Assembly: GCF_024508295.1 (NCBI RefSeq)
Contig: NZ_CP101990.1
Coordinates: forward strand, 124,001 to 188,000
Source of the DNA: Aeromicrobium duanguangcaii
Lineage (GTDB): Bacteria > Actinomycetota > Actinomycetes > Propionibacteriales > Nocardioidaceae
DNA: 64,000 nt
Direction: 5' to 3'
Below are positions 7,484 through 53,870 of this stretch, piece by piece. Every line of letters starts with the position of its first letter. Position 1 is the stretch's first letter. The notes below the pieces were generated by a model. That model made no database searches. It was not told the origin of the DNA and saw only the letters and a list, made by a program, of their open reading frames with translations. Both the position numbers and the translations under genes were made by a program.

Positions 7484-7571
7484 TGGCGGAGGATAGGGGA
7501 TTCGAACCCCTGAGAGCTTTCACTCAACCCGCTTTCCAAGCGAGCGCACTAGGCCACTATGCGAATCCTCC
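7484..7571 (-). tRNA. tRNA-Ser (anticodon GGA)
   Basis: The 88-base sequence folds as a class II tRNA. The acceptor pairs GGAGGAT with ATCCTCC, followed by a G discriminator and an encoded CCA. The anticodon loop is TTGGAAA, giving GGA. There is a long variable arm and a T-loop TTCGAAT. Confidence 0.95.
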
Positions 7572-23436: not shown

Positions 23437-23526
23437 TGGCGGTGGCGGTGGGATTTGAACCCACGGTGGGCGTGAACCCACACACGCTTTCGAGGCGTGC
23501 TCCTTAGGCCGCTCGGACACGCCACC
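23437..23526 (-). tRNA. tRNA-Ser (anticodon CGA)
   Basis: A 90-base class II tRNA. The acceptor pairs GGTGGCG with CGCCACC, followed by a G discriminator and an encoded CCA. The anticodon loop CTCGAAA gives CGA. There is a long variable arm and a T-loop TTCAAAT. Confidence 0.95.
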
Positions 23527-46307: not shown

Positions 46308-47084
46308 ATGACCGCGGTCACGTGGTGGGGCCACGCCTTCGTGACGGTCGAGCTGCCCGGAGCGATCGTCGCGACCGACCCGCTGATGGCGCGCCGGCTG
46401 TTCCACCTGCGTCGCGTCGGGGCGCTGCCGGCGGCGCGTGCCACGCGGGCCGACCTCGTCCTGATCTCGCACCTGCACCACGACCACCTGCACCTGCCGA
46501 CCCTGCGCCGGTTCGACGACGCGGTGCCGATCGTCGTGCCGCGCGGGGCGGTGCGTGCCGTCCGCTCGCTGGAGCGGATGAACGCGATCGAGGTCGTGCC
46601 GGGCGACCGGCTCACCGTCGCGGGGGTCGACGTCGAGGTCCTGCCCGCCCGGCACGACGGACGGCGGGACCGCCGGCCGGCAGCCGCGGTCGCGCCCGCG
46701 CTGGGCTTCCGGTTCGCCAACGCGGGCGTGACCTGCTGGTATCCGGGGGACACCGGGCCGATGGACTTCACGAGCGTGGCCGCCGTCGACCTCGCGCTCG
46801 TGCCGATCGGCGGGTGGGGTCCGTCCCTGGGGGACGAGCACCTCGACCCGGGGCAGGCGGCGACTGCCGTCCGGGACGTCGGGGCCCGCTGGGTGGTCCC
46901 CGTGCATCACGGCACCTACTGGCCCGTGGTCCTGCGCTCGACGGGCCCTACCCACGACCACTGGTTCGCCTCACCCGGCGATCGGTTCCGCACGGCGATG
47001 GCCGCGCAGGCGCCGGCGACCCGCATCGTCGGGACCTCGATGGGAGTCCGCACGGAGCTCACTCGTGGAACGATGACCATGTGA
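46308..47084 (+). CDS. MBL-fold metallo-hydrolase
   Basis: A 258-residue beta-lactamase-fold protein. It begins TAVTWWGHAFVTVEL and has the metal-site motif SHLHHDHLHLPT (about residues 60-71), with further ligands in ARHDGRRDRR, GDTGPMDF and HHGTYWP. UlaG or ComA-like members hydrolyse lactones or phosphoesters in the cytoplasm; no signal peptide is visible. GGAG lies four bases before the ATG. The stop overlaps the GTG of the next gene (GTGA). Confidence 0.8.
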   Translation: MTAVTWWGHAFVTVELPGAIVATDPLMARRLFHLRRVGALPAARATRADLVLISHLHHDHLHLPTLRRFDDAVPIVVPRGAVRAVRSLERMNAIEVVPGDRLTVAGVDVEVLPARHDGRRDRRPAAAVAPALGFRFANAGVTCWYPGDTGPMDFTSVAAVDLALVPIGGWGPSLGDEHLDPGQAATAVRDVGARWVVPVHHGTYWPVVLRSTGPTHDHWFASPGDRFRTAMAAQAPATRIVGTSMGVRTELTRGTMTM

Positions 47085-49189
47085 GCCACGCCACGGAGCG
47101 AGGGTGGGCCTCACCGGCACCCGAGGGGACCCGAGCGAGCTGGGTGCCGGGGGTCGCCGACGTCCTGCAGGCGGTGTGGACCGTCGTGGTGGCGGCGGTC
47201 GCGTTGACGCTGGGCCTGGCGGCCGTGGGGGTGAGCGTCACCGATGAGCTGCTCCTCGTCGTCGTGGTGTTCGTCGCGATGTTCGTGCTCGACGCGATCG
47301 TGTCGCGACCCCTGCGGCTGCTGGCGTCGGGAGGGAGCGTCCTGACGGCGCTGGTGCTGGGCCTCACAGCCCAGGTGCTCGTGCTCGGTGCGGCGATCGA
47401 CCTGGCGGCGCACGCGGACCTGGGCATCGGCGACACCCTGGTGGTCCTACTGGTCGCCGGGGCGGTCATGGCCTGCGGGAGGTGGCTCTCCGGCGCCACG
47501 GACAGCCACTACGTCGTCGGGGCCGCCACGGGCGGTGGTCTGCGCCAGAGGTGGGCACGCGCCGGCGTCGGCCGGGAGGATCGACCGCGCGGCCTGCTGG
47601 TGGTACAGATCGACGGGGTGGCGCTGCCGGTCCTGCGGCGGGCCCTGGCCGGCGGTCAGGCGCCGAACATCGCTCGCTGGGTGCGCTCCAGCCACACGCT
47701 GACCGGCTGGTGGGCGACCATCCCGTGCACGACCCCCGCCAGCATGGCCGGATTCCTGCACGGGAGCGACCAGGTGCCCGCCTACCGCTGGTGGGACCGC
47801 CGCTCCGGCCGCCTGCTCGTCGCGGGGAACCCGGCCGACGCCCGCGTGATCGAGGCACGCTTCCCGACGGATTCGGGGCTCCTGCGCGACGGCACGGCGA
47901 TCAGCACGACCTTCACCGGCGGCGCGGCACGCTCGTACCTCACGGTGAGCCGCTCGACCCGCTTGCGCGACCTGGGCTCGGGATCGACCTACCTGTCGTT
48001 CTTCATCCGACCGTTCCTGCTCCCCGGTGCGCTCGTCCTGACCGTGGGCGAGGTGATCAAGGAGTTCCGCCAGGGTCACCGCCAGCGCGTGCGCGACGTC
48101 CGGCCCCGGATCCCGCGCAAGGCCGACTACGCCGTGCTGCGCGGCCTGACCAACGTGCTGCTGCGCAAGCTCGACCTGTCGCTGATCGCCGACGAGATGA
48201 CGCGGGGGTCACCCATCATCTTCGTGGACTTCGTCGACTACGACGAGATCGCGCACCATGCCGGTCCGGAGCGGCCCGAGTCGATGGCGGCGATCGAAGG
48301 TCTCGACGGCGCACTCGCGGCACTGGAGGACGTCGCCCGGTCGGTCGCGACCCGCTACGACCTCGTGGTGGTGTCGGACCACGGACAGAGCCTGGGCGCA
48401 CCGTTCTCGCAGCTCGCCGGTTGCTCCTTCGCCGATCGCGTGGTCGAGCTGATGAGGTCGGGAGGGTCGGAGGCCACCGTTCTCACCACGACGGAGGAGG
48501 GCGAGCAGCGCGGCCCCATCCACACGCTGACCTCCGCCGTGGTCGGCGAGGACCGGTCGCCTCCCGAGGCCATCGTGTCGGGGTCCGACGACCCGGACGT
48601 CGCCGTCACCGGGGGCGGCAACCTCGGCATGATCTGGTTCCGCCGGCTGGCTGTGCGGCCCACGCTCGCCGAGATCGACGCCGCGTGGCCCGAGCTCGTC
48701 CCGGGTCTGCTGGGCAGCCCCGGCGTGGGCCTGGTGATGTCGACGGACGACGCCGGCGATCCCCTCGTGATCGGCCCCGACGGGGTTCGCGGCCTGGGGG
48801 ACGCGCCGATCACCGACGGAGAGGACCCGTTGCTGGGCTACCCCTCACGCGCGGCCGCCGACCTTGCCAGGCTGCACGCGTTGAGCGATGCCGGCGACCT
48901 GGTCGTCCTCTCGACCGTCGACGAGCTCGACAGGGTGCACGCCTTCGAGGAACAGGTCGGCTCGCACGGAGGCATCGGCGGGCCTCAGAACGAGGCGCTC
49001 TTCATCCATCCGCGCGACTGGCCCCTGGACCCCGACCTCACCGAGGTCGTCCCGGAGTTGGGTGACACGCCCGTGCTCGTCGGCGCGTGGAACGTCCATC
49101 GTCAGCTGATGGCGTGGCGCCGCGACCACGGGGCGACTCCCCTCAGCGGAAGGCGCACCCGCTGGTCAGGCCGAACCGCCGCAGGATGA
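47081..49189 (+). CDS. membrane alkaline-phosphatase-superfamily protein
   Basis: A 702-residue protein. Four membrane helices (residues 20-150, phage_holin-like) are followed by a phosphodiesterase/phosphatase core: metal and nucleophile region LLVVQIDGVALPVLRRAL and TIPCTTPASMAGFLHG, then IIFVDFVDYDEIAHHAGP, VVVSDHGQSLG and GSHGGIGG. Such proteins are placed in nucleotide pyrophosphatase/sulfatase or GPI-type phosphoethanolamine groups. The substrate is not evident. It is coupled by GTGA overlap to the metallo-hydrolase upstream, so a joint phosphoester role is possible. Confidence 0.75.
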   Translation: MSHATERGWASPAPEGTRASWVPGVADVLQAVWTVVVAAVALTLGLAAVGVSVTDELLLVVVVFVAMFVLDAIVSRPLRLLASGGSVLTALVLGLTAQVLVLGAAIDLAAHADLGIGDTLVVLLVAGAVMACGRWLSGATDSHYVVGAATGGGLRQRWARAGVGREDRPRGLLVVQIDGVALPVLRRALAGGQAPNIARWVRSSHTLTGWWATIPCTTPASMAGFLHGSDQVPAYRWWDRRSGRLLVAGNPADARVIEARFPTDSGLLRDGTAISTTFTGGAARSYLTVSRSTRLRDLGSGSTYLSFFIRPFLLPGALVLTVGEVIKEFRQGHRQRVRDVRPRIPRKADYAVLRGLTNVLLRKLDLSLIADEMTRGSPIIFVDFVDYDEIAHHAGPERPESMAAIEGLDGALAALEDVARSVATRYDLVVVSDHGQSLGAPFSQLAGCSFADRVVELMRSGGSEATVLTTTEEGEQRGPIHTLTSAVVGEDRSPPEAIVSGSDDPDVAVTGGGNLGMIWFRRLAVRPTLAEIDAAWPELVPGLLGSPGVGLVMSTDDAGDPLVIGPDGVRGLGDAPITDGEDPLLGYPSRAAADLARLHALSDAGDLVVLSTVDELDRVHAFEEQVGSHGGIGGPQNEALFIHPRDWPLDPDLTEVVPELGDTPVLVGAWNVHRQLMAWRRDHGATPLSGRRTRWSGRTAAG

Positions 49190-49346
49190 CGGCCGCCGGG
49201 CAGAACCCGGTCAGACTCGCCTGCAGCAGATTCGCTCCGACGAACGCGGTCAGGATCAGCCACCAGGTCGAGACGACGGCGGTGAGCACCACGCTGACCA
49301 GGATGAGGGTGCCGGCCATCAGCATGACGGCGCGATCGATGTTCAT
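49143..49346 (-). CDS. DUF2892 (YgaP-like) membrane protein
   Basis: A 67-residue protein, MNIDRAVMLMAGTLILVSVV, with two membrane helices and the tail LTGFCPAAVILRRFGLTSGC that is diagnostic for the DUF2892/YgaP membrane module, including the two Cys. In other proteins this module is fused to rhodanese domains in sulfur chemistry. Here it stands alone. AAGGAG lies seven bases before the ATG. It lies 41 bases downstream of the MMPL gene on the same strand, so it is probably in that operon. Its 3' end overlaps the phosphatase-superfamily gene by 47 bases, tail to tail. Confidence 0.8.
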   Translation of the reverse strand: MNIDRAVMLMAGTLILVSVVLTAVVSTWWLILTAFVGANLLQASLTGFCPAAVILRRFGLTSGCAFR

Positions 49347-49387: not shown

Positions 49388-51580
49388 TCAGTCGTGCGCG
49401 AAGGTGATGTTCGGCAGGACCCTCGTGAGCCACGCCGGTGCGTACCAAGCGGCCTTGCCGGTGAGCCGCAGCATGACCGGCAGCAGCACGAGCCGGACCA
49501 GGAACGCGTCCAGCAGCACGGCGATGCCCAGGACCACGCCCATCTCCTTGGGCGGGATGGGACCGGACAGGGCGAAGGTGAAGAACACCGCCACCATGAC
49601 CGCGCCGGCCGCGAAGATGACGCGTCCGGAATGGGCCAGGGAGCCGACCATCGCGTCCTTCGGGTCACCGCTGCGCTCGTAGTGCTCCTTGGCGGAGGCG
49701 AGCAGGAAGACCGTGTAGTCCATCGCGATGGCGAAGATCATCGCGAAGAAGAACACCGGCGCCCAGGCGTCCAGGAAGCCCTGCGACTCGAAGCCCAGCA
49801 GGCTCGATCCGTGTCCCTCCTGGAAGATCAGCCGGGCCACGCCGAACGCCGCGCCGGTCGACAACAGGCTGGCGAGAGTGCCGAGCAGGGAGATCAGCGG
49901 CGCCTGCAGGGCGAACAGCAGCAGCAGGAAGCCCAGCACCAGGACGACGCCGATGACCAGCGGCGTGGACTCGTCGAGCTGTGCCTTGAGGTCGAGGTTC
50001 TCGACCGGGGCACCTCCGACGAGGGCCGAGGAGGGCAGGTCGTCGCGCAGCCGGTCGACCGTCGAGGCGAGCTCGGGGTCGGACGGGTCGACGGTCGGCA
50101 CGGCCTGGAACATCACCAGGGCGCTGTCGTCCGTGGCGAGCGCGGGCGGCATCGCCGCGGCCAGGCCCGGATCGGAGGCCAGCACGGAGGCGACTGCCGC
50201 CGCCTCGTCGTCGTTCACGACGATCTGCAGCGTTCCGGGGGCGCCGTCGCCGAAGGACTCCTTGACCTGGTCGTAGCCGACCCGCGCCGAGGCGTCCTCG
50301 GGCAGGACCTTGATCGACGGCATCGCGGTGGTCAGGCCCACGACGGGGGCGGCCAGGGCCACCAGGATCACCAGTGCACCGGAGCCCCAGACGAGGGGTC
50401 GCTTCCACAGCCGCTCACCCCACTTCTCGAAGCGGACCGAACGGTGCTCACCCGAGCGCGACCACGGCAGGGCGAACCTGTTGATGCGGTCGTCGAGCGT
50501 GAACAGCACCAGTGGCAGCAACGTGAGCGTCGCGCCGAGGATGAACACGACCGAGAGCATGATGCCGCCGGCCATCGACCGGAAGGACGGCGAGGGCACG
50601 AGCATCACGGCCGAAAGCGAGATCAGTACGGTCAGGCCCGAGAGCAGGACCGCCTTGCCGGCGGTGTCCATCGTCTCGGCGATCGCGCGCTGCCGGGCGA
50701 GCCGTGGCTCGACCCCCTCCTCGCGTCGGGCGGCCCGGGCGGCGCGATAGCGCACGACCATGAACAGCGCGTAGTCGATGCCCAGGGCCAAGGCGAACAT
50801 CATCGCGAAGTTCATCGCCCAGATCGAGACGGGAACCAGTTCGTTGATCAGCACCAGCGAGCCGGCGGACGCGACCAGGCCGGCCAGGGTCAGCAGCAGC
50901 GGCAGACCCGCGGCCACGAGGGCGCCGAAGGCCAGGACGAGGATCGCCAGGGTCACGGGCCACGACATGAACTCGGACGTGAGCATCGCATCGAGGTTGG
51001 CCTCGTTGAAGTCGCTCCACAGCAGCGAGGAGCCGGTCGGGTTGACCGTCACGGTGTCGGTGGACAGCGCCCCGAGCTCCTCCTTCAGGTCGGTGGCGAC
51101 CCGGACCATCTCGTTGGTGTCCGCGCCGGCGCCGCCCATGACGATGGCCGTCGTGCCGTCCTGGGACAGGGTGGCGCCGGGCATCGGATCGACGACGTCG
51201 GCGATCCGGGGCTCGCGCTCGAGCACGTCGGTGACGGCGGCGATGACCTCGGCGCCGTCACCCTCGGTGACCGGTCCGTCCTCGGAGCGGACGACCACCT
51301 GGATCGACGAGGAGGCGTTCCCGCCGAAGTGCTCCTGGGCGAGCTCACGGGCCTCGACCGACTCCGAGCCGTTCGCCTGCCAGCCGGCGCCGGACAGGTT
51401 CTTCTCGACCATCGGCGCGAACGCGCCGAGTCCGATCACGGCGAGCAGCCAGATGCCGGTGACCAGGCGCACGTGGCCGGTGACCCAGACGCCGAGGCGC
51501 CCGAGGGGACCGGCCGGGACATCGGGCTGGGCGGCGCGTGCGCGCCGGCCCGGTCGTCTGCGGGTGGGGGTGGAGCTCAT
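49388..51580 (-). CDS. MMPL-family RND-type transporter
   Basis: A 730-residue inner-membrane transporter with two six-helix halves. An extracellular loop domain lies after helix 1 and another after helix 7, and ALGIDYALFMVVRYR and AIAMDYTVFLLASAKEHYE mark the two halves (Asp residues on helices 4 and 10 that carry the proton relay). MMPL proteins export lipids, siderophores or drugs. I use the ATG at 51580 (GGAAG upstream) since the longer frame ahead has no signal and would cross the promoter. The two palindromes upstream suggest metal- or sulfur-responsive control. Confidence 0.87.
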   Translation of the reverse strand: MSSTPTRRRPGRRARAAQPDVPAGPLGRLGVWVTGHVRLVTGIWLLAVIGLGAFAPMVEKNLSGAGWQANGSESVEARELAQEHFGGNASSSIQVVVRSEDGPVTEGDGAEVIAAVTDVLEREPRIADVVDPMPGATLSQDGTTAIVMGGAGADTNEMVRVATDLKEELGALSTDTVTVNPTGSSLLWSDFNEANLDAMLTSEFMSWPVTLAILVLAFGALVAAGLPLLLTLAGLVASAGSLVLINELVPVSIWAMNFAMMFALALGIDYALFMVVRYRAARAARREEGVEPRLARQRAIAETMDTAGKAVLLSGLTVLISLSAVMLVPSPSFRSMAGGIMLSVVFILGATLTLLPLVLFTLDDRINRFALPWSRSGEHRSVRFEKWGERLWKRPLVWGSGALVILVALAAPVVGLTTAMPSIKVLPEDASARVGYDQVKESFGDGAPGTLQIVVNDDEAAAVASVLASDPGLAAAMPPALATDDSALVMFQAVPTVDPSDPELASTVDRLRDDLPSSALVGGAPVENLDLKAQLDESTPLVIGVVLVLGFLLLLFALQAPLISLLGTLASLLSTGAAFGVARLIFQEGHGSSLLGFESQGFLDAWAPVFFFAMIFAIAMDYTVFLLASAKEHYERSGDPKDAMVGSLAHSGRVIFAAGAVMVAVFFTFALSGPIPPKEMGVVLGIAVLLDAFLVRLVLLPVMLRLTGKAAWYAPAWLTRVLPNITFAHD

Positions 51581-51617: not shown

Positions 51618-51668
51618 ATCCCCCAGGGGGGATGGCGTCTGGCGAGCATAACATCCCCCAGGGGGGAT
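51618..51668 (-). promoter_or_regulatory. tandem identical palindromes around the MMPL gene -10 box
   Basis: The same 16-mer ATCCCCCAGGGGGGAT occurs at 51618-51633 and 51653-51668, centres 35 bases apart. Each is ATCCCCC-AG-GGGGGAT, two-fold symmetric except for the middle pair. Between them on the minus strand lies TATGCT (51650-51645), a good -10. G/C-tract palindromes of this form are typical operators of CsoR/RcnR/CstR-type repressors. No such regulator gene is in the window. Confidence 0.65.
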
Positions 51669-51729
51669 ACCGAAGGTGGTGTTCGGCGAGGAAGGACGCG
51701 GAGTCGACGGGTCGCCGTGGCAAAAGAGA

Positions 51730-51944: not shown

Positions 51945-52592
51945 ATGTCCGAAACGCCCCGTGTTCCCATGCGCCGTGACGCTGTGGCGAACCGTGAACG
52001 CATCATCGACACCGCCGAGGTCTACTTCGCCGAGAACGGCCTCGACGCGCCGATGCATGCCCTGGCGTCCGCCGCGAAGGTCGGCACCGGAACCCTCTAT
52101 CGCAACTTCGCCTCGCAGGAGGAGCTGTGGCGCGCCCTCTACGAGCGCCACATCGCGCTCTTCGACGAGATCGCCGAGCGCGCGTTGGAGATCGAGTCGG
52201 GCTGGGAGGCGATCCAGGTCATCGTGGACGGGACCGCCCAGATCATGATCGACCGGCGGATCGTCGCCGAGGTGATGCGCCGCCTCGCGAAGGTCGACCC
52301 GGACTACCGCCCGACGGATCGGTGGGTCAGCACGTTGCAGACCGTGGCCCAGCGGGCCGTCGAGGAGGGCATGGCGCGTCCGGACCTGACGGTGGCCGAT
52401 CTGAGCGCCGCCCCGCTGATGCTCAGCGCCGTGCAGACGGCCGCGCCGGAGAATCGCGGCTGGCTCGCCCGTCGGATGCGCACGCTGTTGCTGGACGGGA
52501 TGCGCGCGCACCCTCACGAGCCCTCACCGCTGGCGGATCTGCCCCCGGACTTCTACGAGCGCGGCGCGTCGATCGTCAAATCACTGCCCTGA
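51945..52592 (+). CDS. TetR-family transcriptional regulator
   Basis: A 215-residue TetR regulator with an N-terminal helix-turn-helix (ANRERIIDTAEVYFAENG, KVGTGTLYRNFASQEELWRAL, residues 15-60) and a ligand-binding helical part typical of SbtR-type TetR_C_33 proteins. The ATG at 51945 has TAAATT seven bases ahead (leaderless), though an inner ATG at 51969 is possible. It lies between two tRNA genes with no other protein gene nearby, so its target is not suggested by context. Confidence 0.85.
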   Translation: MSETPRVPMRRDAVANRERIIDTAEVYFAENGLDAPMHALASAAKVGTGTLYRNFASQEELWRALYERHIALFDEIAERALEIESGWEAIQVIVDGTAQIMIDRRIVAEVMRRLAKVDPDYRPTDRWVSTLQTVAQRAVEEGMARPDLTVADLSAAPLMLSAVQTAAPENRGWLARRMRTLLLDGMRAHPHEPSPLADLPPDFYERGASIVKSLP

Positions 52593-52636: not shown

Positions 52637-52726
52637 GGAGATGTCGCATAGTGGCCTAGTGCGCCCGCCTGCTAAGCGGGTTGAGGTTTAAACCTCTCGA
52701 GGGTTCAAATCCCTCCATCTCCGCCA
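52637..52726 (+). tRNA. tRNA-Ser (anticodon GCT)
   Basis: A 90-base class II tRNA. The acceptor pairs GGAGATG with CATCTCC, followed by a G discriminator and an encoded CCA. The anticodon GCT sits in the loop CTGCTAA. The variable arm is long. Confidence 0.95.
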
Positions 52727-53780: not shown

Positions 53781-53781
53781 G

Positions 53782-53870
53782 CAGAGGGGGCGGGATTCGA
53801 ACCCGCGGCTGACATCTCTGCCAGCGACCGCTTTCAAGGCGGTTCCGATCGGCCACTCCGGCACCCCTCC
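53782..53870 (-). tRNA. tRNA-Ser (anticodon TGA)
   Basis: An 89-base class II tRNA with anticodon TGA in the loop CTTGAAA, a long variable arm and T-loop TTCGAAT. The acceptor pairs GGAGGGG with CCCCTCT, leaving a G1-U72 wobble at the end. CCA is not encoded, unlike the other tRNAs in this window. Confidence 0.9.

Follow-up and report, generated by a model that had tools for sequence, protein, structure and literature searches.

The window, i.e., the whole 64-kb stretch analyzed here, spans C1:124001-188000 of a genome made up of one contig of 3.13 Mb. Its minus strand carries an exporter gene and a small transmembrane gene, preceded by a pair of palindromes that flank a promoter element. The genes and regulatory features, the latter assigned mainly from sequence and from their position in relatives, are as follows:

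49143..49346, minus strand: DUF2892/YgaP-like transmembrane gene, 41 bp behind the exporter gene (Pfam YgaP-like_TM, 42.7 bits)
49388..51580, minus strand: gene for an MMPL/RND-type exporter of 730 aa, at the head of the operon (Pfam MMPL, 213 bits; cut-off 20.5)
51618..51633, no strand: putative downstream operator copy, identical to the upstream copy (sequence, genome search, position conserved in relatives)
51645..51653, minus strand: extended -10 element TGTTATGCT, with hexamer TATGCT at 51650-51645 (sequence; same element type in related promoters)
51653..51668, no strand: putative upstream operator copy ATCCCCCAGGGGGGAT, as seen from MMPL (sequence, position conserved in relatives)
51669..51674, minus strand: putative weak -35 element TTCGGT, with an 18-bp spacer (suggested by the sequence)

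The exporter is an MMPL-domain protein whose closest solved structures are those of MmpL3. At 269 and 621, it has Asp-Tyr pairs of the kind that form the proton relay of MmpL3. The DUF2892 gene, with its start set at an ATG internal to the listed open reading frame, is presumed to share the operon with MMPL. Upstream and on the same strand, a tRNA-Arg gene is closed off by a terminator-like hairpin at 51761-51730; therefore, MMPL is probably transcribed from a promoter of its own. A TetR-family regulator gene (51945-52592, plus strand) lies divergent from MMPL across this tRNA gene, and the DUF2892 gene is adjoined on its other side by a convergent gene (47012-49189) whose product has a type I phosphodiesterase domain. 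The window also holds four tRNA-Ser genes (7484-7571, 23437-23526, 52637-52726, and 53781-53870) whose anticodons are all different (gga, cga, gct, and tga).

The 16-bp palindrome ATCCCCCAGGGGGGAT, with perfect arms ATCCCCC/GGGGGAT and two bases at the centre, is present twice without change, as originally noted; the 35 bp between the copies is the start-to-start (centre) distance, and the gap separating them is 19 bp. Allowing three or fewer mismatches, the window contains five strand-counted matches, four of which are the two palindromes read on both strands, compared with a mean of 0.60 and a maximum of 3 in 100 shuffled windows. The hexamer TATGCT had been placed exactly midway between the copies; it is, instead, 2 bp from the upstream copy, on the minus strand. 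The extended -10 element to which it belongs runs from 51653 to 51645, and its first T is the final base of the upstream palindrome. The upstream copy fills the spacer between -35 and -10 in the MMPL promoter, and the downstream copy is expected to lie just past the transcription start. A plain sigma-70 scan gave no hit here.

A genome-wide search found the palindrome to be confined to two promoters. The form AWCCCCCNNGGGGGWT occurs at four places with no mismatch, at none with one, and at 18 with two (reversed control, 1), and the four exact places form two pairs, each 35 bp centre to centre. Similarly, ATCCCCCNNGGGGGAT at one mismatch or fewer is found at four places in the whole genome, again two pairs (reversed control, 0). 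The second pair is 2.1 Mb further along the contig from the window pair, or ~1.0 Mb the other way if the chromosome is circular, in the following setting:

C1:2276318-2276575 (L007 8316-8576 including the stop codon), minus strand: csoR2, a CsoR-family gene of 86 aa (PF02583)
L007 8604-8619 and 8639-8654: second putative operator pair, between csoR2 and the CMD/AhpD-like gene
L007 8677-9066, plus strand: CMD/AhpD-like gene, divergent from csoR2 (family models)

The palindrome is thus not scattered, and its sole other pair stands 27 bp upstream of a CsoR-family gene. The original prediction of an operator for a CsoR/CstR-type regulator encoded elsewhere withstood these genomic searches, and relatives have the double site between MMPL and the regulator itself. 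The cysteines C68 and C71 of CMD are invariant (39/39). About 330 bp downstream of csoR2, on the same strand, a large open reading frame looks catalase-like by eye (L007 5710-7986). The 18 two-mismatch sites were considered as further weak operators and treated as chance. Four of them had their neighbourhoods inspected by eye: one (L216 1501-1516, C1:579651-579666) is just upstream of groES-groEL-like genes, and no sulfur gene was seen at the other three.

CsoR2 belongs to the CsoR (DUF156) family, matching PF02583 with 65.5 bits against a cut-off of 22.8. Among homologues of at least 55% identity, those below 55% being left out, Cys35 is kept in 92/92 and Cys64 in 93/93, i.e., two cysteines 29 residues apart, and the position of the copper-binding histidine, four residues before the second cysteine, is glycine in 92 and alanine in one of 93. 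Neither specialized NCBIfam model recognizes the protein: it reaches 32.6 of 175 bits for RicR, lacking the Cys-His-Cys copper ligands, and 32.3 of 133 bits for the formaldehyde-responsive FrmR. Raw similarity places CsoR2 no nearer to 7mq1, a CstR-like protein (30.5 bits), than to Mycobacterium tuberculosis CsoR 2hh7 (33.5 bits), and therefore its assignment to the CstR/ScCsoR type is based on the cysteine signature and gene neighbourhood, not on a tree.

The double site recurs in two sets of relatives, which are not independent because some genomes are common to both. The first set comprises 196 genomes of the order, of which 30 have it (reversed control, 0), with a CsoR2 homologue within 1.5 kb in 28 of the 30 loci; the two loci without one are that of MMPL in the window and L032, where a dioxygenase-rhodanese gene stands at the sites. 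The second set is one genome-collection scan that gave 117 public contigs with a double site; the genera among the matches listed include Nocardioides, Aeromicrobium, Kribbella, Gordonia, Tsukamurella, Nocardia, and Streptomyces, and a contig of Aeromicrobium sp. IC_218 also holds the site. Here, a CsoR2 homologue is found within 700 bp in 92/117 loci and none within 1.5 kb in 25, 12 of which have less than 1.5 kb of DNA on one side; in 111/117 loci, one or more reference genes lie within 1.5 kb.

The genes within 300 bp of the sites and reading away from them are DUF302 (63 of the 117 loci), MMPL (50), rhodanese (26), CMD (25), and dioxygenase-rhodanese (9). DUF302 next to the sites usually leads on to CsoR2, and its cysteines C59 (67/67) and C80 (65/65) are invariant. 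Within 3.5 kb, MMPL is present in 63/117 loci, followed on the same side by DUF2892 in 18/117, and DUF2892 has one invariant cysteine, C83 (22/22), and a second, C98, in 17/21. Rhodanese (27/117) and dioxygenase-rhodanese genes (34/117, both within 3.5 kb) are seen at the sites in relatives only. CsoR2 is divergent in 42 of the 50 loci with MMPL within 300 bp, the remaining eight being L054, L070, L071, L101, L117, L119, L145, and L152. The commonest layouts are MMPL opposite DUF302-CsoR2 (19 loci), CMD opposite CsoR2 (12), and MMPL-CMD-DUF2892 opposite DUF302-CsoR2 (10). In 12/117 loci, a rhodanese and/or dioxygenase-rhodanese gene is followed on the same side by MMPL; in L048, the one locus checked, TauE is the gene in between. 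These layouts suggest that the MMPL-DUF2892 and CMD/csoR2 loci of our genome, both with a double site, are parts of a single ancestral locus. Six scan loci (L058, L078, L087, L098, L116, and L128) have no reference gene and are probably chance or other regulons; scanning one open reading frame each from L058, L078, and L098 found no sulfur link. Three of the six (L058, L087, and L116) are on contigs labelled Bacillota/Clostridia, and their double sites are probably chance.

At the genus level, MMPL is present in 18/49 genomes, CsoR2 in 25/49, and both in 17 (Fisher p 3e-6, uncorrected for phylogeny), using thresholds of E ≤ 1e-100 for MMPL and E ≤ 1e-12 for CsoR2, the latter of which lets in homologues down to 45% identity. 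A strict pair is upstream of 11 of the 19 MMPL matches in the genus. The eight without it comprise two with one strict copy, of which L175 begins at the contig end; two (L166 and L172) that have no pair and neighbour a dioxygenase-rhodanese gene of the same orientation; one that is truncated; and three that are more distant (62% identity). On a Tsukamurella plasmid (L211 4000-4050), an ATCCCCC-type pair ~34 bp apart sits between CMD and a divergent DUF302-CsoR2. A Nocardia farcinica plasmid stretch (L212), with a regulator of 78% identity, was rejected as a further case: its 9.3 kb hold one strict palindrome only, upstream of the regulator.

The promoter geometry is conserved along with the sites. 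For 108 of the 117 loci, the promoter could be oriented to a target gene, and the extended -10 pattern TGnTAnnnT, chosen after inspection of these same promoters, directly follows the upstream site in 93/108, compared with one on the opposite strand and a mean of 1.6 (maximum 7) in 500 spacer shuffles. The sites are 31-39 bp apart centre to centre, most commonly 35 (33/108), and the MMPL promoter of the window has the same TGnTAnnnT element. In front of the CMD gene beside csoR2, too, the pair encloses an extended -10. The pair is very probably a set of docking sites for a small cysteine-based repressor. More specifically, it is likely, with good confidence, that the two palindromes serve as a double operator for CsoR2, which would be a persulfide-responsive repressor of the CstR/ScCsoR type controlling MMPL-DUF2892 here and CMD together with csoR2 elsewhere in the genome.

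The closest known parallel is in Streptomyces coelicolor, where a CsoR-like repressor with two cysteines, ScCsoR (SCO0620), binds two 16-bp palindromes in the promoter of a persulfide dioxygenase and is released by sulfane sulfur, both cysteines being required for the response (PMC7533328). Its two cysteines, Cys37 and Cys66, are 29 residues apart, as in CsoR2; the operator consensus is ATACCn6GGTAT; the regulator gene is autoregulated, which the site upstream of csoR2 suggests here as well; and the regulon includes persulfide dioxygenase, rhodanese, and TauE, whose counterparts we see in relatives (PMC7533328). The switch is of a known kind, with an operator variant that differs from the ScCsoR consensus (PMC7533328): it reads A(T/A)CCCCCNNGGGGG(A/T)T, the third base being C and not A. 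The targets also differ, being MMPL-DUF2892 and CMD, with no dioxygenase fusion found in this genome. CstR/YrkD of Firmicutes is likewise a two-cysteine repressor of sulfur-detoxification genes (PMC9918477), and CstR-like 7mq1 has no histidine at the copper position when aligned with CsoR2, but the sequence similarity is distant (the 30.5 bits given above) and the targets are others. In the SUL module of Arthrobacter plasmids, likewise, sulfur dioxygenase, rhodaneses, TauE, and DUF302 go together with a regulator of the CsoR family; the accessible part of its description gives an MFS transporter and no MMPL (PMC6305408).

This shared anatomy with the S. coelicolor circuit supports a mechanism of repression and persulfide release for CsoR2, which would run as follows. 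Reduced CsoR2 would occupy both sites and block RNA polymerase. A persulfide or polysulfide would modify Cys35, which would then couple to Cys64 of the neighbouring subunit, and the modified CsoR2 would leave the DNA, allowing expression of MMPL-DUF2892, CMD, and csoR2 itself. Sulfane sulfur could then be handled by CMD and DUF2892, both with invariant cysteines, and the proton-driven MMPL might export a sulfur-bearing or sulfur-damaged lipophilic product. Both the binding of CsoR2 and this direction of regulation, as well as the inducer and the cargo, are what we infer. Judged from its relatives, the repressor would sense reactive sulfur, which would tie the MMPL exporter to sulfur-stress defence in actinobacteria. 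Our genome has no match to DUF302, and a relative's dioxygenase-rhodanese fusion finds three partial matches in it (30-41%) but none over the full length, and therefore the sulfur link rests on relatives; the rhodanese genes that it does have carry no double site. The CMD and MMPL branches, on the one hand, and the dioxygenase branch, on the other, need not all respond to the same signal molecule.

Cysteine sensors often respond to several electrophiles. CsoR2 could be the regulator and its signal another thiol-reactive species, such as an aldehyde, quinone, peroxide, or hypochlorite, against which the AhpD-like CMD and the MMPL would be the defence. The membership of CMD in the AhpD-like family and the missing DUF302 and dioxygenase fusion would fit such a role, which we nonetheless regard as unlikely: in relatives, this operator, with a regulator of this family, is found at genes for rhodanese and persulfide dioxygenase-like proteins, some of them in line with MMPL, and CsoR2 falls far short of the FrmR model.

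A copper-responsive CsoR acting on the palindromes, with MMPL as a copper-stress exporter, is quite improbable. The genome does encode one other CsoR-family protein, which is copper-type; it scores 139 bits against the RicR model, short of the 175-bit cut-off. Its separate locus (L008 7173-9909) contains this gene, a copper-chaperone-like small open reading frame, and a P-type ATPase that looks like a copper ATPase, the last two labelled by eye. G/C-tract palindromes are described as typical of CsoR operators (PMC10318464), and CsoR2 shares the PF02583 family with copper CsoR/RicR. However, the copper-type CsoR has its own, different palindrome, ATACCCCTCGGGGGTAT, two mismatches from the operator motif and directly before its start, and is never the best match in the 117 loci, whereas the site-linked CsoR2 lacks the copper histidine in 93/93. 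The original prediction had left copper, sulfide, or another electrophile as the signal; the neighbourhood and the cysteine signature favour persulfide or sulfide, and the absent copper histidine disfavours copper.

TetR genes often control neighbouring exporters, and the adjacent TetR-family gene is divergent from MMPL, but its control of MMPL through the palindromes is very improbable, given that TetR is not conserved at the sites (one weak match in 117 loci, 26% identity and 2.8 kb away, in L109) and that the genome's second pair stands between csoR2 and CMD. The palindromes are short inverted repeats, rich in G/C, that precede a gene, but that they act as RNA hairpins or terminators is scarcely credible, since the upstream copy precedes the predicted transcription start, the pair brackets a -10 element in 93/108 promoters, no T run follows either copy, and between 51400 and 52000 the sole flagged terminator is that of the tRNA (51761-51730), with the tRNA as the sole Rfam match.

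With CsoR2 as the persulfide-responsive repressor, the orphan MMPL exporter family, the AhpD-like protein, DUF2892, and DUF302 come under one regulator and into a likely chemical setting, and the disposal of excess sulfane sulfur in actinobacteria by routes other than oxidation becomes directly testable. The two pairs also show that operators can be retained in a regulon even when the regulator gene and its target are far apart on the chromosome. Our searches of open-access literature found neither an account of an MMPL in such a regulon, although a mention may exist there, nor one of the operator variant and the MMPL-CMD-DUF2892 branch. A more far-reaching idea, which we put forward as a tentative possibility, is that the MMPL proteins of this subfamily are RND-type exporters whose cargo is sulfane sulfur (e.g., mycothiol or lipid polysulfide, or elemental sulfur) and form the missing export arm of the actinobacterial persulfide-stress regulon, with CMD as a persulfide reductase.

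The complete lack of cysteine in the window MMPL (0 of 730 residues) was considered as a mark of a thiol-reactive cargo and dropped, because it is not special to this protein: four other MMPL proteins of the same genome have 0, 0, 2, and 2 cysteines. Six cysteines are present in a fifth protein, a weaker match within a frame of 870 aa. Of 55 distinct near-full-length MMPL sequences with 65% identity or more, 49 are free of cysteine and six have a single one. Rv1766 and Rv1767 were considered as mycobacterial counterparts and set aside, as the accessible part of PMC4916473 gives only hypoxia-linked expression. Finally, palindromes of the ATACCC type, not the ATCCCCC type, are found beside more distant CsoR2-like regulators on two plasmids: at L225 612-671, on a Streptomyces plasmid (61% identity), with two rhodaneses and an MBL-fold gene adjacent, and at L213 4421-4436 (55% identity), with rhodanese, MBL-fold, and TauE genes adjacent.
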